Part shown: piece after piece, positions 5,791 to 18,861 of the stretch
Position numbering within the stretch: position 1 is the first letter of the stretch
Layout: the number at the start of each line of letters is the position of its first letter
Virus record (IMG/VR): IMGVR_UViG_3300027771_000051
Location: 1-33,418 of that record
DNA length: 33,418 bases
Origin: a virus
Reading direction: 5' to 3' (one strand)
The notes under the pieces: generated by a model
Seen by the model: the letters and a program-made list of their open reading frames with translations, nothing else
Databases searched by the model: none
What the model was told of the DNA's origin: nothing
Made by a program: the position numbers and the translations under genes

Positions 5791-5984
5791 TGACTATCTG
5801 GGACGAATTTGTTCAAACACTAAATGAAGAAATTAATAATCTAAGATTGTCTCTTGGTAATGGAAGTGCTGGTGACTACGCTGAGTATAGACAGATGGTA
5901 GGCACACTGGCAGGACTTGAATGGTCAAGAGATCGTTTAACTGATATTGTAAAGAAACGCATATACGACGAAGATGAGGAGTAA
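5790..5984 (+). CDS. Small helical hypothetical protein
   Basis: A 64-residue protein predicted to be almost entirely helical, with a heptad-like pattern (FVQTLNEEINNLRLSL) and an acidic end (YDEDEE). Its ATG overlaps the preceding stop. Small helical proteins of this kind sit between portal and scaffold in related phages as I recall them, but no function is established. Its 3' end carries the GAGGAG Shine-Dalgarno (5976-5981) for the next gene. Confidence 0.75.
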   Translation: MTIWDEFVQTLNEEINNLRLSLGNGSAGDYAEYRQMVGTLAGLEWSRDRLTDIVKKRIYDEDEE

Positions 5985-5985
5985 A

Positions 5986-6414
5986 ATGCAACAAGTAAAT
6001 TTAGGTAACTCTATTAAAAATGATCTTTGGATCACAGACCCTATTGAACAGCCGGACCCTGATGTATTACCATCACTTCCCGGTTTTCATATTCTAGTTC
6101 GCCCTGTTACGGTTAAGTCGCTAACCAAGGGTGGTATTATTATTCCAGACTCTACCAAAGAAGATATGGCTTATCTTACAACTATTGGTAAAGTTCTAAG
6201 CCTTGGTGATCTTGCATATGGAGATCAGGATAAGTTTCCTAAAGGTAGCTGGTGTAAAGAAGGGGACTTTGTTTGCTACGGTAAACATACAGGAACTAAG
6301 CTATTTTATAAAGGAGTACGGCTTATTCTATTGTTTGATGATCAGATCATGCTTCGTGTAGAAAACCCTGCTGATCTTGATCCTACATTTAACCTTAGTG
6401 CAGGATCAAGTTAA
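5986..6414 (+). CDS. GroES-like co-chaperonin
   Basis: Predicted lid for a GroEL chaperonin, comparable in role to phage T4 gp31. The GroES fold is visible from GFHILVRPV (33-41), through the mobile-loop GroEL contact GGIIIPD (49-55, equivalent to GGIVL of GroES) and the TIGKVLSLGD strand (66-75), to the KEGDFVCYGKHTGTKL strand pair (91-106) and the terminal strand ILLFDDQIMLRV (114-125). It is 142 residues against about 97 in bacteria, with a 30-residue N-terminal extension and a short acidic tail. The ATG at 5986 is preferred over the upstream in-frame ATG at 5974 because GAGGAG lies 4 bases upstream of it. No GroEL gene is in the window, so it presumably works with the host chaperonin. Its place just before scaffold and capsid suggests the client is a virion protein. 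Confidence 0.9.
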   Translation: MQQVNLGNSIKNDLWITDPIEQPDPDVLPSLPGFHILVRPVTVKSLTKGGIIIPDSTKEDMAYLTTIGKVLSLGDLAYGDQDKFPKGSWCKEGDFVCYGKHTGTKLFYKGVRLILLFDDQIMLRVENPADLDPTFNLSAGSS

Positions 6415-6499: not shown

Positions 6500-7429
6500 A
6501 TGATCGAAAAAGAAGAGTGGAGCGAAGTATCTGTTCCTAATGGTGAAGAGGAGAATGAAGTTGCGTATGAAATTGAAGAATCTTCTGAACAAGCTGTTGC
6601 AGTTTCTGCACCTAAAGAAAAAGAAGAAAAAGAAAAAAGCGGGACAGAGCTAGACGGAGTTGAAACGTCTGGCGCTCAGAAACGTATCCGACAACTTATT
6701 CGTCAGCGTAAAGAACGTGACGAACAAATTCATTCCCTTATCCAAAAAAATGAGGAATTAGAAACTAACCTCAAAACAAAGCATTCTGAAGTACAAGAGA
6801 TTAATAAACTAAGTCTCGATGCTTCGGAAAAGCAACTGACAGATAAAATTCAGTTGGCTCAAGCAGCTTACTTAGAAGCATTTGAAAACGGCGAGAAGGA
6901 AAAACTTCTTCAAGCTCAGACAATGCTCAATGAAGCGCAGGGCGATCTGAAGAATGTTTCCAGTGCTAAACGTAATTATGAAGCTGCTCCAGTAGAACAG
7001 CCAGTACAACAGCAAGTTGCTCCTAGACCTGCTGTAACTGATCCCAAGGCAGAAGAGTGGGCATCAGAAAATAATTGGTTTGGTACTAACAATGTTATGA
7101 CCGCAGCGGCACTAGCTATTGATGCGGAACTAAAGAATGAAGGTTACGATCCAAATGATAATGAATTTTATCAGGAGATTAGTAATAGAATGAAGAAATC
7201 TTTTCCTCAACAGTTTGGGGAAGATATTCAACGTGTGCAGGACAGTACGTTAAGTCCTGCTCAAGTGGTTTCGGGGGGATCGCGTTCCTCCTCATCCAGT
7301 TCTAGAAAGGTTAAGTTATCTCAAGAAGATATCCGACTAGCAGAGAAATGGAATATTCCACTTGAAAGATATGCTGCCGAAAAGCTCAAAGTAAATGGGG
7401 CTGACGGCGAATACACAAATATTAAATAG
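6500..7429 (+). CDS. Probable capsid scaffolding protein
   Basis: A 309-residue, highly charged protein with the usual scaffold layout: an acidic disordered N-terminus (1-55), a long coiled coil (about 58-155, QKRIRQLIRQRKERDEQI onward), a Pro/Gln linker, a conserved-looking block EEWASENNWFG followed by the MTAAALAIDAELKNEGYDP segment (about 185-220), and a Ser-rich stretch leading to a basic helical C-terminus (SSRKVKLSQEDIRLAEKWN). Scaffolds bind the capsid protein through such a basic C-terminal helix. Gene order (before decoration and capsid genes, behind its own strong promoter) supports the call. No prohead protease gene or fused protease domain is visible. Confidence 0.8.
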   Translation: MIEKEEWSEVSVPNGEEENEVAYEIEESSEQAVAVSAPKEKEEKEKSGTELDGVETSGAQKRIRQLIRQRKERDEQIHSLIQKNEELETNLKTKHSEVQEINKLSLDASEKQLTDKIQLAQAAYLEAFENGEKEKLLQAQTMLNEAQGDLKNVSSAKRNYEAAPVEQPVQQQVAPRPAVTDPKAEEWASENNWFGTNNVMTAAALAIDAELKNEGYDPNDNEFYQEISNRMKKSFPQQFGEDIQRVQDSTLSPAQVVSGGSRSSSSSSRKVKLSQEDIRLAEKWNIPLERYAAEKLKVNGADGEYTNIK

Positions 7430-9941: not shown

Positions 9942-10637
9942 ATGCCTTCTTATTCTTATCTGAAGACCGACATTATCAACACAACTGAAAATGATTCGAT
10001 TGAGTTTGCGGATCAGATTCCTAAGTTGATTGAAAAAACAGAACTACGTCTTACTAAAGATTTAGACGATGTTGGTTTAGATGAGTATACCGCTATTTCA
10101 TATGTAGCGACTAATGCCAGTATTGCACTTAATGATCGAGTGCGTATTATTCGTAATGTAAACTACACCACAAGTATCAGTGTAACTGGAGTTCCATCTT
10201 CCTCGAAGGTAAACTTGTTACAAAGAACTTATGAGTATGCTACAGACTACTGGCCTATTGCTACATCTACAGGAACTCCCCGTTACTATTCACGGAAAAC
10301 GAATGGATCAATTTACATTGTACCAACACCTACATCAGCTTTGTCAGGTATTGTTCAAACTGCTTCACGGCCTTTAGCTCTTGCTTCGGCAACAGGCACA
10401 AGTGTGACAGTTTCAAATTATTACAGCGAGTATTGCTATAACGCTTTATTTTATGGTTGTATGTTAGAAGCCACTATGTACATGAAAGATTGGAACACTC
10501 TTCCAGTTTGGCAGGGACAGTATGACAACGCAGTAACTGCACTACGTAATCAGGCTCGTAGAACTAGACAAGACGATATGGAAACCGCTGCTAGTCCTGC
10601 TGGTGGACCCAATACACTTATACAAGGAGCAAGCTAA
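9942..10637 (+). CDS. Head-tail adaptor (connector) protein
   Basis: A 231-residue protein of the kind that docks under the portal in SU10- and P22-like phages. It has an N-terminal helical region (SYSYLKTDIINTTEN, ADQIPKLIEKTELRLTKDLD), a beta core (RIIRNVNYTTSISV, LLQRTYEYATDYWP, GTPRYYSRKTNGSIYIVPTP) and a C-terminal helical segment (YNALFYGCMLEATMYMKDW onward) with a Gln/Arg-rich end. The PRYYS-IYIVPTP block is the clearest family mark. It starts one base after the previous stop and its own stop overlaps the next ATG. Together with the protein at 13874 it would form the head-closure complex. Confidence 0.75.
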   Translation: MPSYSYLKTDIINTTENDSIEFADQIPKLIEKTELRLTKDLDDVGLDEYTAISYVATNASIALNDRVRIIRNVNYTTSISVTGVPSSSKVNLLQRTYEYATDYWPIATSTGTPRYYSRKTNGSIYIVPTPTSALSGIVQTASRPLALASATGTSVTVSNYYSEYCYNALFYGCMLEATMYMKDWNTLPVWQGQYDNAVTALRNQARRTRQDDMETAASPAGGPNTLIQGAS

Positions 10638-10933
10638 TGGCATTAAAAGGCAATCAAAAAAAATTAGATGTAGACAATGACGGCAAAATAACTAAAAAAG
10701 ATTTTGATACAATAAATGCAAAGCCAAAGCCTAATCCAAGAAGAAGCTCTGTTAATACAGAAACTGGTGCTACTCGTGGAGCAGGTGAAGAAATGGTACG
10801 TGCTAAAAAAATGGGTGGTGGTCAAGTAATGAAGTATAAGAAGGGCGGCATTGTTTATAAACAAGGTGGCGGCGTTATTAAAGCTAATAGCGGTGGTCAA
10901 GGTATTGTTGACTCAGGCTATACTAAAGTATAA
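10637..10933 (+). CDS. Small basic protein with an EF-hand-like loop and Gly-rich tail
   Basis: A 98-residue protein. Residues 11-22 (DVDNDGKITKKD) fit the 12-residue EF-hand/dockerin calcium loop exactly: Asp at 1, 3 and 5, Gly at 6, Ile at 8, Asp at 12. The C-terminal half is a basic Gly-rich tail with MGGGQVMKYKKGG (59-71) and QGGGV (76-80). No partner EF-hand is present in the chain, so calcium binding would require dimerisation or would be weak. The AAGGAG ribosome site is good. First gene of a run of small basic genes between two connector genes. A virion role is inferred. Confidence 0.8.
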   Translation: MALKGNQKKLDVDNDGKITKKDFDTINAKPKPNPRRSSVNTETGATRGAGEEMVRAKKMGGGQVMKYKKGGIVYKQGGGVIKANSGGQGIVDSGYTKV

Positions 10934-11163
10934 TGGCTACAAGTCGCGCCAGCATTAGACAGCAGGTTACTAAAGGCGGTCGAAAGAAAAAGAAAAAGAA
11001 ACCGCCGCTTGGTTCTGGTAAACGATTTAAAGATACAGTTTCTAATTTAAAAAAACGTGGGGCTAGAAACCCTAAAGCTTTAGCAGCATACATTGGAAGA
11101 AAAAAGTACGGTGCTAAGAAATTTGCTGCAATGGCTGCAAAGGGAAAAAGGAGAAAATCATGA
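10933..11163 (+). CDS. Small, very basic conserved protein
   Basis: A 76-residue protein, about one third Lys/Arg. It has a poly-basic patch (GGRKKKKKKPP, residues 15-25) and a C-terminal conserved-looking block NPKALAAYIGRKKYGAKKFA, followed by a basic end. I recall this GRKKYG block in many phage small proteins, often fused to other modules, without known function. Strong positive charge suggests DNA or capsid-interior contact. The gene overlaps its neighbours on both sides (TAATG upstream, 4 bases downstream). Confidence 0.8.
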   Translation: MATSRASIRQQVTKGGRKKKKKKPPLGSGKRFKDTVSNLKKRGARNPKALAAYIGRKKYGAKKFAAMAAKGKRRKS

Positions 11164-11357
11164 AGAAGACTTATTTAAGAGGGCCGCACAGTTTGCTGGC
11201 CTATCCTGCTGACCTTAATGCTATTACTGGTAAGCCTACTGGTCAGGGTTTCGGTGCTGCACGCAAAGGTCCGTCTGTTGTAGGTAAGCCTGAGAATGTA
11301 GTTGTAGATTATTCTATGGATGAAAAAGTTATTTATACAGAAAAAGCTGGAGAGTAA
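11160..11357 (+). CDS. Small hypothetical protein
   Basis: A 65-residue protein starting inside the previous stop region (overlap 11160-11163) behind AAGGAG. Motifs are RGPHSLLAYPADLNAITGKP (6-25) and GKPENVVVDYSMDE. It has no membrane span or cysteine. I do not recognise a family. It lies in the run of small genes between the two connectors and is probably co-translated with its neighbours. Confidence 0.7.
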   Translation: MKKTYLRGPHSLLAYPADLNAITGKPTGQGFGAARKGPSVVGKPENVVVDYSMDEKVIYTEKAGE

Positions 11358-11359
11358 TT

Positions 11360-11992
11360 ATGGCTATTGCAGGTAGAATAGGAAAAAAAATATTAGACGT
11401 TGCTGGTGGTACAAGATATACTGGTAAAAAACCTACAGGACAAAGAGCAAAAGATATTACAGAGGTAGCCTTAACAGGCGGCACAAAAGGAAGAAGAACT
11501 GGAGCGGCTACAAGAAATCGCGCTACTGGCAAACTATCTGGTTTAAGTGCTGGAGGCAAAAATTCCGTTGGTAATGATGCAAAAGCTGCTAGGAGATTAA
11601 GAAAAGGCGCTCTAGGAACTGCTGCAATTGTAGGTGGCGCTGCTGCTCTTTCAAGTAAAGGTGACGAAGAAGCTAAAGCTAAAGATACGTCTAAAGTACA
11701 AGACACATCTAAAACTAAAAAACAAGGTCAGACTGCTTTTGAAAAAGCTTTTCGTCAAGCTAGGCGTGAAGGTAAGAAAACTTTTACGTTTGAAGGTAAA
11801 AAGTATACTACTGATCTTAGAAAACCTAAACAGCCTTCTCCTCGATCTAAACCTAAAGCACCTATTAAAAAAGCATATGGCGGTAAAGTCATGAAGCGTA
11901 TGGGCGGTGGAAATACAATGTATCGTAAAAGCGGCGGTAGTGTAGGTGAGCAACTTGTTGCTGCTTGTTATAAAGATAAGGGAGCATCTTAA
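11360..11992 (+). CDS. Basic low-complexity protein with C-terminal GGG motif
   Basis: A 210-residue, Lys/Arg-rich protein. The N-terminal region (1-80) is basic and Gly/Thr-rich. A short Ala/Gly/Val stretch (84-98, ALGTAAIVGGAAALS) is too weak to be a sure membrane span. A charged linker (100-125) follows, then a basic block QTAFEKAFRQARREGKKTFT (124-143) that looks like the conserved part, then a Pro/Lys-rich segment and YGGKVMKRMGGG (173-184), echoing the tail of the protein at 10637. Two bases separate it from the previous gene. Probably virion-associated. Function unknown. Confidence 0.75.
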   Translation: MAIAGRIGKKILDVAGGTRYTGKKPTGQRAKDITEVALTGGTKGRRTGAATRNRATGKLSGLSAGGKNSVGNDAKAARRLRKGALGTAAIVGGAAALSSKGDEEAKAKDTSKVQDTSKTKKQGQTAFEKAFRQARREGKKTFTFEGKKYTTDLRKPKQPSPRSKPKAPIKKAYGGKVMKRMGGGNTMYRKSGGSVGEQLVAACYKDKGAS

Positions 11993-11993
11993 A

Positions 11994-12839
11994 ATGGCTA
12001 GAAAACCAGAAAGTGCTAAAGCAATAAAAGATAGAAAAATAAAGAAAGAAAAAAATCTATTAAACAAACTTAATAGAATTAATAAAAGAATAGAAAGCGG
12101 TAAATTTAAAGGCGTAACTTTAGAAACTCAAAGAAGACTTAAAGCTAACGTAGAAAAAGATATTGAAAAAATTGATAAGGCTTCTGCTGGTATGTTAGCT
12201 ACAGCGCCAAGCTCTCCTGTTGTAAAAGCTGTAAAACAAGCAGAACGTATTGCAACATCAAATCTTGCTTTAGCAGGGTTAAGTGACCGAGACAAAGCTA
12301 AAGCAAGAATTGTAACAGGTAGGAATAACGCAAATACTCTAAGCAGAGGCCCTGATGTTTCTCCAGAAACAGGTAATCAACGAACAGCTAGAATGGGACA
12401 GCCTAAGACAAACAATCGTAGATTTAATGCAAGAACAACTACACCTTCACAAAAATTTTCAGGACTAATGGCTGGTTCGCCCTCTTTACCAAATACTCTT
12501 CGTGGTTCAGATGCACCGTTGCCTCGTTCTAAAGAAACTGTTGATGAATATGCAGAAGCTTTTGCCTCACCTGATGCTGGTAAGATGTTTGATCTTTCTG
12601 AAAAAAACCGTCGTAAAGATATGAATATGCTAGAGCGCGGTTTTGATTCTCTTAAATTAGCAGGAGAACGTGCTTCTGCTGATAGAAAGAAACGTGGGCT
12701 TAGTGACTACGATATGAATGAAGATGTTTTTGGTAGCCGATCAGGTGGCGGTATAAAAAAGACTATAAAAAAGAAAAATTCATCTGTTCGTAAACGTGCA
12801 GCAAAAAGAGGCTTTGGTGTCGAAACTCGTGGAAACTAA
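11994..12839 (+). CDS. Basic hypothetical protein
   Basis: A 281-residue protein. The ATG at 11994 (GGGAG 8 bases upstream) is preferred to a GTG at 11946 that would overlap the previous gene by 47 bases. Residues 1-60 are an Arg/Lys helical segment. The middle (about 95-190) is polar, and 190-235 holds an amphipathic helix (VDEYAEAFASPDAGKMFDLS). The C-terminus carries SGGGIKKTIKKK (250-261) and ends strongly basic. The GGG followed by basic residues recalls other genes in this block. No enzyme motif is seen. A structural or DNA-contacting virion role is inferred. Confidence 0.75.
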   Translation: MARKPESAKAIKDRKIKKEKNLLNKLNRINKRIESGKFKGVTLETQRRLKANVEKDIEKIDKASAGMLATAPSSPVVKAVKQAERIATSNLALAGLSDRDKAKARIVTGRNNANTLSRGPDVSPETGNQRTARMGQPKTNNRRFNARTTTPSQKFSGLMAGSPSLPNTLRGSDAPLPRSKETVDEYAEAFASPDAGKMFDLSEKNRRKDMNMLERGFDSLKLAGERASADRKKRGLSDYDMNEDVFGSRSGGGIKKTIKKKNSSVRKRAAKRGFGVETRGN

Positions 12840-12987
12840 TTTTGATAACCTTCCTGAAGAAGTAGGAATAAACTGGGATATAATGCGTCCAGTAGAAAAA
12901 GATTATAAAAGTTGGAATGACTACTGGTCTGCCTTTGCTGACTACATGGTAGAAAAATATAAGTATACTAACTGTAGGAAAAAATAA
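12817..12987 (+). CDS. Small acidic-aromatic hypothetical protein
   Basis: A protein of about 56 residues overlapping the end of the previous gene by 23 bases. I chose the GTG at 12817 because AAAGAGG (12805-12811) lies 5 bases upstream. Other in-frame GTG codons at 12796 and 12829 are possible. The core LPEEVGINWDIMRPVEKDY and WNDYWSAFADYMVEKY is rich in Trp, Tyr and acidic residues, in contrast to its basic neighbours. It could be a partner of one of them. Function unknown. Confidence 0.6.
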   Translation: MSKLVETNFDNLPEEVGINWDIMRPVEKDYKSWNDYWSAFADYMVEKYKYTNCRKK

Positions 12988-13328
12988 TGTCTTTATCTGA
13001 TTCCGAAAAGAAAAAACTTAAACGCTATAGTTTAAGCGGACTTAATAAACCAAAGCGTACACCACAACATCCTACTAAAAAAGCTGTGGTTGCTATTCGT
13101 GATAAAGGCCGTATTAAAGTTATTCGTTTTGGCGATCAGAAAATGGGGCATAATTATTCTCCTGAAGCACGTAAGTCTTTTAAAGCTAGACATGGTAAAA
13201 ATATTGCTAAAGGAAAAACTAGCGGAGCTTACTGGGCTAATAAACTTTTTTGGGCTGGACCTAGTGGTTCTAAAAAAAGCCCTCCCAAGTCGCAAAAATA
13301 TGTGCGCGGAATAAAGAAAAGAGGTTAA
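12987..13328 (+). CDS. Small basic conserved phage protein
   Basis: A 113-residue protein whose core (about 43-90: IKVIRFGDQKMGHNYSPEAR, then SFKARHGKNIAKGKTSGAYW) is a block I recall as recurring in phage and environmental proteins, with conserved FGD, RxSFxARH and SxAYWA elements. The basic C-terminal tail looks disordered. The RHGKNIAKGKTS stretch suggests nucleic-acid binding, but no experiment I know supports it. TAATG overlap with the previous gene. Confidence 0.8.
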   Translation: MSLSDSEKKKLKRYSLSGLNKPKRTPQHPTKKAVVAIRDKGRIKVIRFGDQKMGHNYSPEARKSFKARHGKNIAKGKTSGAYWANKLFWAGPSGSKKSPPKSQKYVRGIKKRG

Positions 13329-13329
13329 C

Positions 13330-13482
13330 ATGAAAAAAGCAGTAGACGCTCCTAAAGGTTTTCACTGGATGAAAGCTGGTAAAGGATTTAAACTTATGAA
13401 AAATCCTAAGACTGGATTTGCTTCACACAAAGGTGGATTTAAAAAAGCAAGTTTTGATGTTCAGATGGTTCATAAGAAGTAA
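13330..13482 (+). CDS. 50-residue conserved small protein
   Basis: ATG at 13330 to TAA at 13480-13482, one base after the previous gene, with the GAGG of its end (13321-13324) as ribosome site. The protein begins MKKAVDAPKGFHWMKAG and continues with FKLMKNPKTGF, HKGGF, ASFDVQMVHKK. I recall the PKGFHWM-KLM-HKG-VQ pattern as a small conserved protein in marine phages. It is basic, without membrane span. It is coupled to its neighbours in the run of small genes. Confidence 0.7.
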   Translation: MKKAVDAPKGFHWMKAGKGFKLMKNPKTGFASHKGGFKKASFDVQMVHKK

Positions 13483-13490
13483 GACACACA

Positions 13491-13874
13491 ATGGCAGTTG
13501 CAAAAAAACGTGACCCTGCTAAATGGGCTAGGGCAAAAGCCAGAGCTAAAGCTAAGATGGGCGGTAAGCATTCTGCTAGAGCTATGCAGCTTGCTGTTAA
13601 ATATTATAAAGACTCTGGTGGAAGTTATAAAGGTAAGAAGAAAGCTAGTAATAAATTATCAAAGTGGACAAAGCAAAAATGGAAAACAAAGTCAGGGAAA
13701 CCAAGCAGCAAGACAGGGGAGAGATATCTTCCAGAGAAAGCAATCAAAGCCCTGTCGTCAAAAGAATATGCTGCGACCACGAAAGCAAAGAGAAAAGCGA
13801 CTGCTGCGGGGAAGCAATACTCCAAACAACCTAAACGTATTGCACGTAAGGTTAAAAGATATAGGAAAACATAA
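13491..13874 (+). CDS. DUF5872-like basic protein
   Basis: A 127-residue protein, over one third Lys/Arg. The N-terminal half (1-50) is an Ala/Lys/Arg helix. Residues about 55-125 match my memory of DUF5872: KWTKQKWKTKSGKPSSKTGE (58-77), RYLPEKAIKALSSKEYAATT (78-97), then a GKQYSKQPKRIARKVKRYR end. Function is unknown. The domain occurs in phages, giant viruses and bacteria. Codon style shifts to more AAG/GGG/CCC over the DUF5872 part (hand count 47% G+C at 13681-13740), hinting at a separately acquired module. TAATG overlap with the next connector gene. Confidence 0.8.
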   Translation: MAVAKKRDPAKWARAKARAKAKMGGKHSARAMQLAVKYYKDSGGSYKGKKKASNKLSKWTKQKWKTKSGKPSSKTGERYLPEKAIKALSSKEYAATTKAKRKATAAGKQYSKQPKRIARKVKRYRKT

Positions 13875-14548
13875 TGGCTGTATCAGGTACATATAATTTT
13901 AACCTTGATATTGACGAGGTTATTCAAGAAGCAATGGAAATGATCGGGGGAGAAAATACTCTCGGTCATGAACCTGCTTCTGCTCGTCGTTCTATTAATA
14001 TTATGTTGAAGGATTGGCAAAATCGTGGTATACTGTTATGGAGTACGAGTGTTTCTTCTGTAACAGTTGTAGCTTCTACTGCTGTATATAATTTATCTAG
14101 TAACACTATTGATGCTCTTGAAGTAGTTTTAAATAGAGATGCTACTGATTTACAACTAACACGTATTACATCAGAAGAGTATTTATTAATACCTAATAAA
14201 ACACAGACAGGAAGACCTTCTCAGTATTCTATTCGTAGAAGCAGAGATAATCCCGTACTATCCGTTTGGCCTATTCCAGATAATTCCACAGACATTTTAA
14301 AAATAGAAACAATCAGCGAACTGCAAGACGTTAATAAGTCAGCAGAACAAAACGCTGATCTACCTAAAAGATTTTTTCCTTGTCTTACGGCAGGGTTATC
14401 TTATTACATGTCAATGAAACGAGCAGGAGTACCCTCTGAACGTATCAATATGTTAAAAGTTAATTATGAAGAAACACTTGCTAGAGCGTTGGAAGAAGAT
14501 CGTGAAAGAGCAAGTTTGTTTCTTCGTCCGAAACTTGGATATATTTAA
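13874..14548 (+). CDS. P22 gp4-like tail accessory/connector protein
   Basis: A 224-residue protein expected to bind the portal ring or first adaptor and close the head. Family marks in order: IDEVIQEAMEMIGGE (13-27), SARRSINIMLKDWQNRGILL (36-55), the beta region VYNLSSNTIDALEVVLNRD (71-89), the EEYLLIPNK-GRPSQYSI segment (101-120), LSVWPIPD (129-136), and the helical C-terminus with SYYMSMKRAG and LEEDRERASLFLRPKLGY. This layout matches gp4-type head-tail connectors of podoviruses. It is separated from the other adaptor (9942) by 3.2 kb of small genes, which is unusual. Confidence 0.85.
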   Translation: MAVSGTYNFNLDIDEVIQEAMEMIGGENTLGHEPASARRSINIMLKDWQNRGILLWSTSVSSVTVVASTAVYNLSSNTIDALEVVLNRDATDLQLTRITSEEYLLIPNKTQTGRPSQYSIRRSRDNPVLSVWPIPDNSTDILKIETISELQDVNKSAEQNADLPKRFFPCLTAGLSYYMSMKRAGVPSERINMLKVNYEETLARALEEDRERASLFLRPKLGYI

Positions 14549-14703: not shown

Positions 14704-14968
14704 TAAAAATGCACTAGCTATGTGTGACGTATGTGGATGGGTTTATCCGCATAGACTTATGCAAGAAAATAGTTATGGCCTTATTGTTTGTCCAGAAGAC
14801 TTTGAAGGAAATTTTGATTTAAAGAATCACCCACAAAATAAAATTCCTGATGTTCGAGACAACCCTTCCATACGTGATCCTAGACCTGACACAGGCGGCA
14901 GAAATTTAACATGGAATCAAGCAGCAACTACTTGGGATTCAACAAATGAGCATTGGCAACTAATATGA
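14693..14968 (+). CDS. Small zinc-knuckle-like protein
   Basis: A 91-residue protein starting at ATG 14693; an upstream in-frame TTG at 14672 would only add seven residues inside the previous gene. The N-terminus carries C11-x2-C14 and, after YGLIV, C33-x2-D36, so the fourth zinc ligand expected of a CxxC...CxxC ribbon is Asp, unless H20 takes part. The rest (40-91) is polar with a conserved-looking HPQNKIPDVRDNPSIRDPRP segment and a Trp-rich end. I recall relatives beside tail genes in marine phages. Function unknown. Stop overlaps the fibre ATG (ATGA). Confidence 0.75.
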   Translation: MATDKNALAMCDVCGWVYPHRLMQENSYGLIVCPEDFEGNFDLKNHPQNKIPDVRDNPSIRDPRPDTGGRNLTWNQAATTWDSTNEHWQLI

Positions 14969-17900
14969 CAGACTTAACAGGAAAATTAATTTCGGGAACA
15001 TATAAGCAGTTATTGCTTATTGATAGTAGCACTGATAATGATGGTGTTAGTACATCTGCTGTGTATGTTCAAACAGGTGATGGCACTAATACTGCACTAA
15101 AAGTTGCTACAAATAAAGTTATTGCTCAAACTGCCTTTCTTGTAGACGGTACAGCAACAGTTAAAAGCGATTTAATTGTTGGCAATAAAGTATGCGCTTC
15201 TGCTTTCTTTGGTGATGGTTCTAATCTTACAGGTCTAACCGCTAGTATTGGTGGAGACATTAGTGTTAGTTCTATTACTGTAGCTGGTAATGTTAATGTT
15301 GGTGGTAGCATTCAAGTTGTAAACAATGTATCAGTTAGTGGCGATTTTAATGTAGCTGGTGATGTCTCACTTGGTGGTACTTTATCACAAACAGGTGTAG
15401 CAACTTTTGCAAGTAATGTTACAGTAGGTGGAAAGCTTGTTGTAGAAGGTGATGTCTCAGTTAGTGGTCAGCTTGATGTTAATGAAAACGCATCTATTGG
15501 TGGTACGTTAGCTGTAACTGGCACGGCTGCTTTTACAAGCAAGTCTACATTTAGTAATGATGTGTCAGTTAGCGGTAGGATTGATACTGCTTCTTCAGTC
15601 TCTATTGGCTCAGTTCTTGATGTAACTGGTGTAGCTAACTTTGCAACAAATGTTAGTGTAAGTGGTAATGTTAATGTAGTTGGTAATGTAACGGCGTCAG
15701 CTTTTTATGGTGATGGTTCTAACTTAACTAATGTTGAAGCAAGTCTTGGTAATCTTCCAGACAATGTTTCTATATCAGGCTTTCTAAATGTTGGCGGTAA
15801 TGTTTCTATTACAGGTAGTTTAGTTGTTACCAGCGAAGTATCTATTAATTCTAATACTAATATTAACGGAACACTTACAGTAGCAGGAGCAGTAAGTCTT
15901 GCATCTACATTAAGTGTGGGTAGTAATGCAACTTTCTTAGCTGATACTGCATTTAAAACAAATGTATCCGTTAGTGGTAATACAAATCTTGGCGGCACGG
16001 TGACTGTTGGTGGAGCAGTTAGTCTTGCATCAACTCTAAGTGTAGGAGGTGCAGCTAATTTTGCATCTACAGTTACTATTACTGGAGCCGTAAGTCTTGC
16101 CTCTACTCTTAGTGTAGGTGGTGCAGTTAATCTTGCATCTACAGTAACAGTTGTAGGTGCAGCTACATTTAAAAATAATGTATCTGTAAGCGGCAATACT
16201 AACCTTTTAGGTACTGTTACAATTGGTGGCGCAGTTAGTTTGGCCTCTAGTCTTAGTGTAGCTGGTGCTGCTAACTTTGCTAATACTGTTACTATAGCAG
16301 GCGCTGTTAGCCTTGCCTCTACTCTTAGTGTAGGCGGCGCTACAAACTTTGCATCTACAGTAACTGTTGTAGGAGATGCTACATTTAAACGTCATGTGTC
16401 TGTTAGTGGCAATATGGATGTAGCAGGTAATGTGTCTGTTGGAGGTACTATCGTTGCTACAGGCGGCATTACGTTTGATGGAGATATATCAGTAAGTGGT
16501 GATGTAAACATTGGCGGTACTTTAACAGTAGCAGGAGCGGTAAGCCTTGCATCTACACTAAGTGTTGGAGGCGCTTCTAATTTTGCCTCTACAGTTACAG
16601 TAGTAGGTGCAGGTACTTTTAAAAATAATGTATCAGTTAGCGGTAATCTAGATGTAGCAGGTAATACATCTGTTGGTGGAACACTGTTTGTTACAGGTGC
16701 AGGTACATTTGATAGTACTGTTTCAATTAGTGCTGGATTAGTTGTCGGCGGAACTGCGACAGTTGTTGGAGCAATGAGCATTGGTGGTGCATTAAGTGTT
16801 GGTGGAGCAACTAATTTACTTAGCACTGTTACCATAACAGGTGCTACAGGATTCCTAAGTACTGTTAGAGTAAGTGGTGCTGCAACAATGGCTAGTACAC
16901 TTGATATAGCAGGAAATACATCTGTTGGTGGAACACTGTTTGTTACAGGTGCTGCTACATTTGATAGCACTGTTTCAATTAGTGCTGGCTTAGTTGTAGG
17001 CGGAACAGTTACAATTTTAGGTGCAAATGTTCAAGCAACAAATGCTAGAGTATGTGCTTCAGCTTTTTATGGTGATGGTGCTAACTTAACTAATGTGCCG
17101 AGTGGAGCAGTTGCTGGTAATATTTCTGTATCCAATGCTATTATAGGCGGTACTCTTAGTGTAGTCGGTGCTGCTCATTTACAAAGTACATTATCAGTTG
17201 CTGGAGCAGGTACATTTGCATCAACAGTAACAGTTGTTGGAGCAATGAGCGTTGGTGGTGCCTTGAGTGTAGGAGGTGCTACTAATTTACTTAGCACAGT
17301 TACAGTAGCAGGAGCCACAGGTTTCTTAGGAACTGTTCGAGTTAGTGGCGCAGCTACAATGGCTAGTACACTAGATGTGGCTGGTAATGTATCGGTAGGC
17401 GGTACTTTGTTTGCTACGGGCGGTGTTACATTTGATGGAGACATATCAGTAAGTGGTGATGTAAATATTGGTGGTACTCTTACAGTAGCAGGAGCAGTAA
17501 GTTTAAACTCAACTCTTAGTGTTGGTGGAGCAACTAATTTAAAAAGCACAGTTACAGTTGCAGGTGCCGCAGGTTTCTTAGGAACTATGAGAGTTAGTGG
17601 TGCTGCAACAATGGCTAGTACACTAGATGTAGCAGGTAACACATCTGTTGGTGGAACACTGTTTGTTACAGGTGCTGGAACATTCGATAATAATGTATCT
17701 GTTAGCGGTAACTTAGTGGTTGGAGGTACAGCTACTGTTGTTGGAGCCATGAGCGTTGGTGGTGCCTTAAGTGTTGGTGGAGCAACTAATTTACTTAGTA
17801 CAGTTACCATAACAGGTGCTACAGGATTCCTAAGTACTGTTAGAGTAAGTGGTGCTGCAACAATGGCTAGTACACTTGATATAGCAGGAAATACATCTGT

Positions 17901-18861
17901 TGGTGGGACGCTATTTGTTACAGGTGCAGGTACATTTGACAACAATGTATCTGTCAGCGGTAACTTAGTGGTTGGAGGTACGGCTACTGTTGTTGGAGCA
18001 ATGAGTATAGGCGGTGCGTTAAGTGTTGGCGGAGCTACTAATTTACTTGGTACAGTTACTGTTGCAGGTAATGCAGGTTTCTTAGGAACTGTTAGGGTAA
18101 GTGGAGCTACATCTCTTGATGGAGCACTAGTTGCTACGGGCGCAGCTACATTTGAAAATAATGTATCTGTTAGTGGTAACTTAGTAGTTGGAGGTACAAC
18201 TACTGTTATAGGTGCTATGAGCGTTGGTGGTGCCTTGAGTGTAGGAGGTGCTACTAACTTACTAGGCACTGTTACAGTTGCTGGTGCTGCGGGTTTCTTA
18301 GGTACTGTAAGAGTTAGCGGTGCAACATCATTAGAGGCAGGATTAGTTGTTGGTGGTAAAGCAGAGCTTAACGATGATGTGTGTGTTAGCGGTAATTCAC
18401 AATTAGTCGGTACTCTTAAAGTTACAGGTGCTACAACTATAACAGGCAACTCAGGTTTCTTGGGAACAGTTAGAGTAAGTGGTAATGTATCACTTGAAGG
18501 ACAGCTACAACTTACTGAATCGGCTGCTGCCGCTGTTGAAACGACAGCTATTAACGGTATTACTTCTGTATCTCTTAACTTTGGTACAGCACAAAACTTC
18601 TTTACTTCTGTTACTGCTGCACATACTCTTGCTAGACCTACCAATGCTAGAGTAGGACAAGTTGGTAGTATTTTCTTGCATCAGCAAGGAGGCAGTGGAA
18701 CAGTATCGTACAATGCTTGTTGGAACTTTATTGGTGGCACAGCACCTACATTCTCAACAACCGATGATGCTGTAGATAGACTAGATTATATTATTCTTTC
18801 TGTATCAAGTGATGGCACTGCTGAAAATATTCAGGCCGTTATGACACAAGCTTATAGTTAA
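14965..18861 (+). CDS. Hexad-repeat tail fibre protein
   Basis: A 1298-residue appendage protein. ATG 14965 overlaps the previous stop; an in-frame TTG at 14953 is less likely. Residues 1-75 look like an attachment domain (LTGKLISGTYKQLLL, VYVQTGDGTNTALKV). Residues from about 95 to 1190 are almost unbroken hexads of the form [VILFM]-x-[GS]-[TAN]-x-x, for example VGGTLF VTGAGT FDSTVS, the signature of a beta-helical or beta-prism shaft. Three copies of ASAF(F/Y)GDG(S/A)NLT interrupt it, the first at about 78-89. The C-terminal 105 residues (after SLNFGTAQNF) form a separate globular domain that also ends the protein at 21964, probably the host-contact or trimerisation tip. No S74 endosialidase-type chaperone is attached. 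Confidence 0.88.
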   Translation: MTDLTGKLISGTYKQLLLIDSSTDNDGVSTSAVYVQTGDGTNTALKVATNKVIAQTAFLVDGTATVKSDLIVGNKVCASAFFGDGSNLTGLTASIGGDISVSSITVAGNVNVGGSIQVVNNVSVSGDFNVAGDVSLGGTLSQTGVATFASNVTVGGKLVVEGDVSVSGQLDVNENASIGGTLAVTGTAAFTSKSTFSNDVSVSGRIDTASSVSIGSVLDVTGVANFATNVSVSGNVNVVGNVTASAFYGDGSNLTNVEASLGNLPDNVSISGFLNVGGNVSITGSLVVTSEVSINSNTNINGTLTVAGAVSLASTLSVGSNATFLADTAFKTNVSVSGNTNLGGTVTVGGAVSLASTLSVGGAANFASTVTITGAVSLASTLSVGGAVNLASTVTVVGAATFKNNVSVSGNTNLLGTVTIGGAVSLASSLSVAGAANFANTVTIAGAVSLASTLSVGGATNFASTVTVVGDATFKRHVSVSGNMDVAGNVSVGGTIVATGGITFDGDISVSGDVNIGGTLTVAGAVSLASTLSVGGASNFASTVTVVGAGTFKNNVSVSGNLDVAGNTSVGGTLFVTGAGTFDSTVSISAGLVVGGTATVVGAMSIGGALSVGGATNLLSTVTITGATGFLSTVRVSGAATMASTLDIAGNTSVGGTLFVTGAATFDSTVSISAGLVVGGTVTILGANVQATNARVCASAFYGDGANLTNVPSGAVAGNISVSNAIIGGTLSVVGAAHLQSTLSVAGAGTFASTVTVVGAMSVGGALSVGGATNLLSTVTVAGATGFLGTVRVSGAATMASTLDVAGNVSVGGTLFATGGVTFDGDISVSGDVNIGGTLTVAGAVSLNSTLSVGGATNLKSTVTVAGAAGFLGTMRVSGAATMASTLDVAGNTSVGGTLFVTGAGTFDNNVSVSGNLVVGGTATVVGAMSVGGALSVGGATNLLSTVTITGATGFLSTVRVSGAATMASTLDIAGNTSVGGTLFVTGAGTFDNNVSVSGNLVVGGTATVVGAMSIGGALSVGGATNLLGTVTVAGNAGFLGTVRVSGATSLDGALVATGAATFENNVSVSGNLVVGGTTTVIGAMSVGGALSVGGATNLLGTVTVAGAAGFLGTVRVSGATSLEAGLVVGGKAELNDDVCVSGNSQLVGTLKVTGATTITGNSGFLGTVRVSGNVSLEGQLQLTESAAAAVETTAINGITSVSLNFGTAQNFFTSVTAAHTLARPTNARVGQVGSIFLHQQGGSGTVSYNACWNFIGGTAPTFSTTDDAVDRLDYIILSVSSDGTAENIQAVMTQAYS
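16781..16970 (+). repeat. Long direct repeat in fibre gene, copy A
   Basis: About 190 bases starting TTGGTGGTGC and running through the CCATAACAGGTGCTACAGGA and TGGCTAGTACACTTGATATA segments recur at 17756 with few differences. The copies are offset by 975 bases (325 codons), so the frame and hexad phase are kept. Confidence 0.8.
17756..17945 (+). repeat. Long direct repeat in fibre gene, copy B
   Basis: Second copy of the block at 16781-16970, differing at scattered, mostly third-codon positions. Recombination between copies would delete or duplicate exactly 325 codons without a frameshift. Confidence 0.8.

Follow-up and report, generated by a model that had tools for sequence, protein, structure and literature searches.

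A 33,418-nucleotide (nt) stretch of viral DNA (IMG/VR record IMGVR_UViG_3300027771_000051, positions 1 to 33,418; hereafter the window) harbors an island of mostly basic genes between two adaptor genes, the strongest feature of which is a set of short C-terminal tags borne by otherwise unrelated proteins and overlooked in a preliminary description of the same DNA. The island is built of two layers: conserved small basic domains (in the products s2, s7, s8 and s9) and hypervariable tagged proteins (s1, s4 and s5). The explanation that we consider most likely, with about even confidence, is that these genes encode basic cargo loaded into the assembling phage head or neck.

The presence of the island is confirmed. 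As the preliminary description had put forward, it lies between two connector genes, and the interval 10637-13874 is filled by nine open reading frames (ORFs), s1 to s9, all on the same strand. Both flanking products belong to the SU10_adaptor family (PF24175), scoring 50.2 bits (gene at 9942) and 38.4 bits (gene at 13874) against a cut-off of 27, so that one genome encodes two proteins of the tubular-tail-A kind. Junctions within the island are gaps of 1-8 nt or overlaps of 1-4 nt (TAATG/ATGA), with the exception of a 44 nt overlap between s5 and s6; gene order and these junctions would point to late expression and co-translation. Seven of the nine products are basic (+11 to +36 net charges per 100 residues), s3 and s6 being the other two, and the earlier wording of 'tiny, mostly basic' genes is apt for charge but not for the size of s4 (210 aa) and s5 (281 aa). 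The capsid proteins of the window and of Pelagibacter phage HTVC023P share 54% identity, and the portal and GroES neighbors in the window are likewise of the HTVC023P kind, which identifies the window as a fragment of an HTVC023P-type podophage; the island is unaffected by the window ends.

C-terminal tags on unrelated proteins

We compared the island with those of 80 related contigs retrieved in a scan with the window capsid protein. These are metagenomic contigs, the ORFs of which were called with a simple gene caller, and some E-values derive from small custom databases. Many island proteins end, after GG-V linkers, in one of a few patterns: T1 (GxGxAxRG[YFG]G), T2 (GG...LVASLYD), T3 (HNRLY) and T4 (ERNPYNYxPRAI). 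In the window, s1 and s4 carry T2-like tags and s5 a T1-like tag, in the forms GG...LVAACY / IVDSGY and AAKRGFGVET, and the conserved core of s3 (KPTGQGFGAARKGP) is similar to T1. A BLAST comparison of the 176 island proteins with 80 or more residues gave 185 pairs that match at the C-terminus only versus 6 at the N-terminus only, the pairs not being independent of each other. Shuffling the last 45 residues lowered the C-terminal-only pairs to 0-3, and a non-island control of about 17,000 pairs comprised 128 C-terminal-only and 35 N-terminal-only matches. Of the 245 island ORFs, 100 carry a tag pattern, as opposed to 4 of the 818 other ORFs on these contigs. We rejected a low-complexity artefact, since the composition-preserving shuffle removes the matches, and a chance origin is ruled out by the shuffling together with the scan of cellular genomes described below.

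Tag class tracks capsid clade in these sequences. T2 is found at 21 loci and T3 at 12, none of which has both, and the T2 and T3 loci fall on opposite sides of a branch of the major capsid protein (MCP) tree with 100/98 support; a co-occurrence as low was obtained in 0 of 500 label shuffles. Several genomes encode two to four tagged genes, and tags within a genome are alike in protein while differing synonymously (94% aa and 82% nt identity over 17 aa in L075; 77% and 69% in L082). Recent copying within genomes was rejected as their source, as most within-genome pairs share only 54-82% nt identity, the exception being L068 (93% over 14 codons). The s9 protein ends with HNRLY in the relatives L039 and L075 and is untagged in the window, indicating that tagged and untagged versions of one body exist.

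Searching the phage collection with a T1 tag peptide (tblastn) gave no match, perhaps as a result of masking, and the tag of phage Pag-Yong1 matched in the Pag-Yong1 phage group only. We found nothing on shared C-terminal phage tags in the open literature. In phage DSL-LC04, a T1-like tag (AGRGMGCATRGGGAV) is N-terminal, in a small protein encoded immediately upstream of the adaptor (L091:15016-15243).

Comparison of s5 with its relatives shows that the N-terminal body is replaceable and the C-module kept. Full-length relatives of the window protein occur at L105-L108, and L109-L117 share mainly its C-module (about 103 aa; 86-90% identity for L109-L111); the window N-body has no match at E<=10 in the bodies of L109-L111. 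Relative to L105 and L108, the proportions of nonsynonymous (pN) and synonymous (pS) differences are 0.16/0.22 and 0.30/0.32 in the N-body (pN/pS about 0.7-0.9) versus 0.17/0.43 and 0.15/0.40 in the C-module (about 0.4). The s4 protein (pN/pS about 0.4-0.6) shares only the motif FxxAFxxARxxGxKTFxWxGKxYTT with many otherwise unrelated proteins. The N-terminal halves of the L109-L117 proteins contain short tandem repeats (AKNPDAVSVRNLPKP, GMLVGEPKRS), the copy number of which varies among contigs.

The same arrangement recurs in a sister clade with a different tag. DGIAxRGxTKG, a motif that we took to be present in other phages and that is supported by the Pag-Yong1 sequence DGCAKRGRTKGRFI, was searched as a DNA pattern in viral contigs and cellular genomes, yielding at least 120 matches in the former versus 3 in 257 Gb of the latter. 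Among the matches listed, to which all further counts for this motif refer, 70 of 84 in-frame occurrences are located exactly three residues before the stop codon, and 65 tagged bodies fall into 46 families. Two of these bodies are DUF6321-like and several contain the s4 motif, linking the DGIA-tagged proteins of these other phages to the islands. Their commonest neighbor is phrog_12985, the family of adaptor B, the right flank of the window island. An adaptor gene lies 0-3.1 kb downstream of 54 of the 70 tagged genes (for the others it is only upstream in 2 cases, a contig edge intervenes in 11 and none is present in 3), and the capsid gene is upstream in the 35 cases in which it was located. 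Because the enrichment of adaptors within 1 kb is modest (23 of 70 tagged genes versus 436 of 3130 ORFs of any kind), we place these genes in the capsid-to-adaptor interval and not directly next to the adaptor. The MCPs of the carriers are 50-60% identical to the window MCP, with a median identity of 82% among themselves (28 clusters at 90%), and we therefore regard the carriers as a sister clade and not as representing all phages.

Conserved basic domains and their slot

The 25 complete islands between both adaptors, including that of the window, span 0.75-5.4 kb and comprise 3-11 ORFs, with conserved flanks and variable length and content. The expectation in the preliminary description that the two connector genes are usually close together hence does not hold for this phage group, in which every complete island keeps the adaptors apart. 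The mean charge of island ORFs is +15 per 100 aa and that of the remaining ORFs on these contigs +1.7; values above +10 are reached by 64% and 13%, respectively. HTVC023P, DSL-LC04 and Pag-Yong1 have similar basic genes upstream of a phrog_12985-type adaptor, and those of HTVC023P include products with RGFGAAR-like and RGVGAAIRG-like ends.

The same slot of related contigs harbors homologues of s2, s3, s6, s7, s8 and s9 for which pN lies far below pS, which indicates that these are more than chance ORFs; relatives of s4 and s5 were also detected. The s3 and s6 homologues (28 other loci and 10 other phage loci, respectively) both have pN<pS. Purifying selection is clear for s2, s7, s8 and s9: pN is 0.22-0.34 versus pS 0.66-0.97 for s2 (homologues at 11 other loci, nine compared) and 0.10-0.17 versus 0.60-0.81 for the five closest relatives of s9. 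The s7 protein matches nearly the whole phrog_7595 profile (1.5e-26, residues 6-89) and s9 matches phrog_14910 (2.6e-31, residues 48-126). The s8 family adjoins s9-type domains in HTVC103P as well.

The assignment of an island protein to DUF5872 (PF19197) had to be abandoned, as no window ORF, s9 included, matches this family at E<=1. Neither DUF6321 nor DUF5872 is reached by any window ORF in Pfam, and lysine-rich small proteins resembling these two marine phage families lie in the same slot or module of relatives; the DUF5872-like gene of HTVC023P (0.0018) is below the Pfam cut-off. Our search of the open literature found nothing on DUF6321 or DUF6496 and a single paper, about an algal virus, for DUF5872.

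Fusion proteins in Vibrio phage ICP1 and in Aeromonas myophages connect the s7 domain to predicted capsid proteases. In the 307-aa protein gp100 of Aeromonas phage 2L372X, the domain (phrog_7595, 8.6e-11) is followed by an XkdF-type protease (Pfam S78_2, 2e-20); the gp100 gene lies in the head-gene cluster between the terminase and capsid genes. The order is reversed in Gp125 of Vibrio phage ICP1, an annotated capsid protease with the protease at residues 36-160 and the s7 domain at residues 185-265; ICP1 gp122-126 form a predicted capsid morphogenesis cluster (PMC7567579). By comparison, s7 is a stand-alone basic member without the protease, and Pfam recognized no protease among the window genes scanned. 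The protein qdvp001_133 also contains the s7 domain and occupies the same portal-to-MCP slot. In L157, the s7 and s9 domains are fused in a single protein, and s9 homologues are found near s7 at 32 of 79 loci. We interpret these fusions, together with the proximity of the two genes, as tying s7 to head assembly and, by way of s7, also s9, leaving aside where the free proteins are located.

A Foldseek search with the s7 model (predicted local distance difference test, pLDDT, of 78) retrieved an XkdF protein, ORF125 of ICP1 and a protein of Tunisvirus, and only weak SH2-like and integrase matches, which we did not use, against the PDB. The s9 model (pLDDT 82) had no PDB match, and the sequences of solved structures yielded nothing significant for either adaptor or for the profiles of s7 and s9. 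The structural match of the s7 model to the marseillevirus protein V9SE36 of Tunisvirus fontaine2 (E 4e-3, probability 1.0) hints that small island domains may be common to giant viruses.

Putative cargo loading and its alternatives

We propose that the island serves as a slot for cargo genes in a late operon, which would provide small polycationic proteins recruited to the head or neck during assembly. The conserved s7, s9, s2 and s8 would behave as internal head or DNA-associated proteins, whereas the payload of the hypervariable s1, s4 and s5 would be the N-terminal body, recruited by a short C-terminal tag recognizing a partner that differs with the capsid lineage. Loaded proteins would stay with the packaged DNA and help to neutralize it, which their charge makes plausible; given loading, ejection with the DNA is likely, and the fast-changing bodies could counter host functions. 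From the arrangement described above we infer that the products dock to a partner in the virion, are packaged, bind DNA and are ejected. The idea of basic virion cargo raised in the preliminary description is partly supported, without its DUF5872 label, and fits the conserved charge, the slot in the capsid/adaptor module, the s7 fusions and the lineage-tracking tags. Variable and unlinked occurrence in relatives had been named as the outcome that would speak against it: the content is indeed highly variable, but the position is strongly linked. A broader proposal, according to which any gene with the clade tag in the capsid-to-adaptor interval yields a product loaded and delivered to the host, forming an interchangeable and mostly uncharacterised injected set in one large and abundant aquatic podophage group, is tentative, and we lean somewhat against it.

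The internal proteins of phage T4 offer the closest comparison: they are basic, present at about 300 copies each and endowed with a targeting sequence of 10-19 residues, their bodies vary between relatives and one of them counters a host nuclease (PMC3012670, PMC9026906). Like IPI, IPII and IPIII, the island products are small, basic and mutually divergent proteins joined only by a short common terminal sequence (PMC3012670, PMC9026906), which here is a putative head-targeting signal. Unlike the N-terminal capsid targeting sequence (CTS) of phage T4, which is cleaved during head maturation, the island tags are C-terminal, belong to a podophage and have no known processing, and whereas the T4 proteins have been located in the virion, the island proteins are putative virion components. 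Membership of the T4 internal-protein family was rejected, given the opposite end of the tag (185 versus 6 pairs) and the absence of demonstrated homology; the island may work in the manner of T4 internal proteins with their CTS. Encapsulin cargo-loading peptides are short C-terminal sequences on unrelated proteins that are recognized by an HK97-fold shell. The island tags share their C-terminal position, no sequence similarity is claimed and shell binding is putative.

Several observations weigh against cargo loading. The tag patterns were defined post hoc from the data in which they were counted, only the DGIA search being independent, and the agreement between tag class and capsid clade is equally expected from plain inheritance. 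The partner of the tags is putative only, and we found no virion proteomics of pelagiphages in the open literature. The DGIA-tagged proteins are, at a mean of +10 charges per 100 aa, milder in charge than s2, s7 and s9, and the non-basic s3 and s6 are inside the island as well. The more distant relatives HTVC027P, in which the basic set lies between the portal and GroES genes, and CRP-902 have no such island separating the two adaptors, showing that the exact slot is not essential; considered with the placements in HTVC023P, DSL-LC04 and Pag-Yong1, the gene set is mobile yet confined to the head/connector module. A section of the HTVC027P transcriptome paper gives no expression class for the basic genes.

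The best-surviving alternative, which we nevertheless deem unlikely, is an accessory-gene hot spot, the small late proteins of which would serve functions within the infected cell (binding of the nucleoid, takeover of the host or counter-defense) and would never enter the particle, with the shared tags serving as degradation, localization or solubility signals. This would accommodate the highly variable, recombining content, the near-neutral charge of the s5 N-body and the occurrence of unrelated genes, such as those annotated as PurM and peptidase M15, in the comparable interval of HTVC023P. It is at odds with the position, fixed in both clades within the capsid-to-adaptor interval, the agreement of tag class with capsid lineage, the fusion of s7 to a predicted capsid protease and the near absence of tags from other genes of the same contigs. 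We attach still less probability to tagged proteins being flexible minor structural parts, in which the tag would bind the adaptor or portal ring and the bodies would act as spacers or plugs: although an adaptor is downstream in 54 of the 70 sister-clade cases listed and at the island end in the window, 46 unrelated body families, swapped s5 bodies and two to four tagged genes in several genomes are difficult to square with a fixed role in the structure. Least probable of all, in our view, are basic partners of an acidic scaffold that assist prohead assembly and are then removed or degraded, and so mostly absent from mature virions, since Pfam and PHROG profile searches detected no scaffold homology for the island proteins and island content is far more variable than the neighboring capsid genes, even if predicted capsid proteases carry the s7 domain as a fusion, an acidic gene (6500-7429; -6 per 100 aa) lies upstream of the MCP gene and T4 internal proteins are incorporated together with the core.

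Should cargo loading be correct, many 'hypothetical lysine-rich' marine phage families would become one testable system, and the phage T4 strategy of a constant address on variable cargo would have arisen in another lineage at the opposite protein end. Tags acting as encapsidation signals would allow many hypervariable candidate injected proteins to be marked from sequence in hard-to-grow phages and would supply a ready-made means of loading proteins into phage heads. The island belongs to an abundant marine phage group, and the shared tag resembles an address label for cargo loading; even without particle entry, the recurrence of a C-terminal tag on dozens of proteins that are unrelated and encoded within a fixed interval calls for an explanation.

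Features and neighboring genes of the window

Table 1. Island ORFs, their sequence features and the flanking adaptor genes, in window coordinates.
Feature	Coordinates	Strand	Net charge per 100 aa	Description
Adaptor A, left flank	9942..10637	+		tubular-tail-A / SU10_adaptor family (Pfam 5.5e-13); phrog_2941 virion structural protein 2e-10
s1	10637..10933	+	+11	98 aa; GGG.V linkers; T2-type tag in the last 13 aa (10892-10930)
s1 EF-hand/dockerin-like loop	10667-10702	+		DVDNDGKITKKD; near the N-terminus of s1
s2	10933..11163	+	+36	76 aa; 'GRKKYG' family
s3	11160..11357	+	+3	65 aa; near neutral; conserved core KPTGQGFGAARKGP (11232-11273)
s4	11360..11992	+	+17	210 aa; motif FEKAFRQARREGKKTFTFEGKKYTT (about 11735-11833)
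s4 T2-type tag	11933-11989	+		GGSVGEQLVAACYKDKGAS; C-terminal
s5	11994..12839	+	+11	281 aa; N-body 1-178; C-module 179-281 (12528-12836)
s5 T1-like end	12789-12836	+		RKRAAKRGFGVETRGN; C-terminal
s6	12796..12987	+	-2	63 aa; not basic; overlaps s5; GTG start uncertain
s7	12987..13328	+	+24	113 aa; phrog_7595 domain
s8	13330..13482	+	+22	50 aa; 'PKGFHWM' family
s9	13491..13874	+	+30	127 aa; N-terminal 'SARAMQ..YYK..GG.Y' domain and phrog_14910 domain
Adaptor B, right flank	13874..14548	+		SU10_adaptor (Pfam 2.3e-9); phrog_12985 3.7e-25

Phages PhiGT1 and Bcep22 likewise possess two tubular-tail-A/adaptor genes, which are adjacent there (PMC10386132) but separated by the island here. Single EF-hand/dockerin-like calcium loops (DVDNDGKITKKD, DLTGDGKVTRAD), below the Pfam cut-offs, recur close to the N-terminus in some of the island or tagged proteins (besides window s1, at L006, L040, L044, L050, L086, L087 and L279). 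The assignment of s1 as an EF-hand or dockerin protein was not supported, its best score of 17.6 bits being below 25.4 (EF-hand_1) and 22.9 (Dockerin_1). With 5 of 358 ORFs having such a loop, we rejected the notion that the loops characterize islands in general. The head module encodes a GroES-like co-chaperonin (5974-6414) that is conserved in cultured relatives. Downstream of adaptor B, a gene at 14953-18861 encodes a 1302-aa protein of near-repeats (VSVSGN..VGGTLTVAGAVSLASTLSVGG), which is probably fibre-like and the length of which is very variable in relatives.

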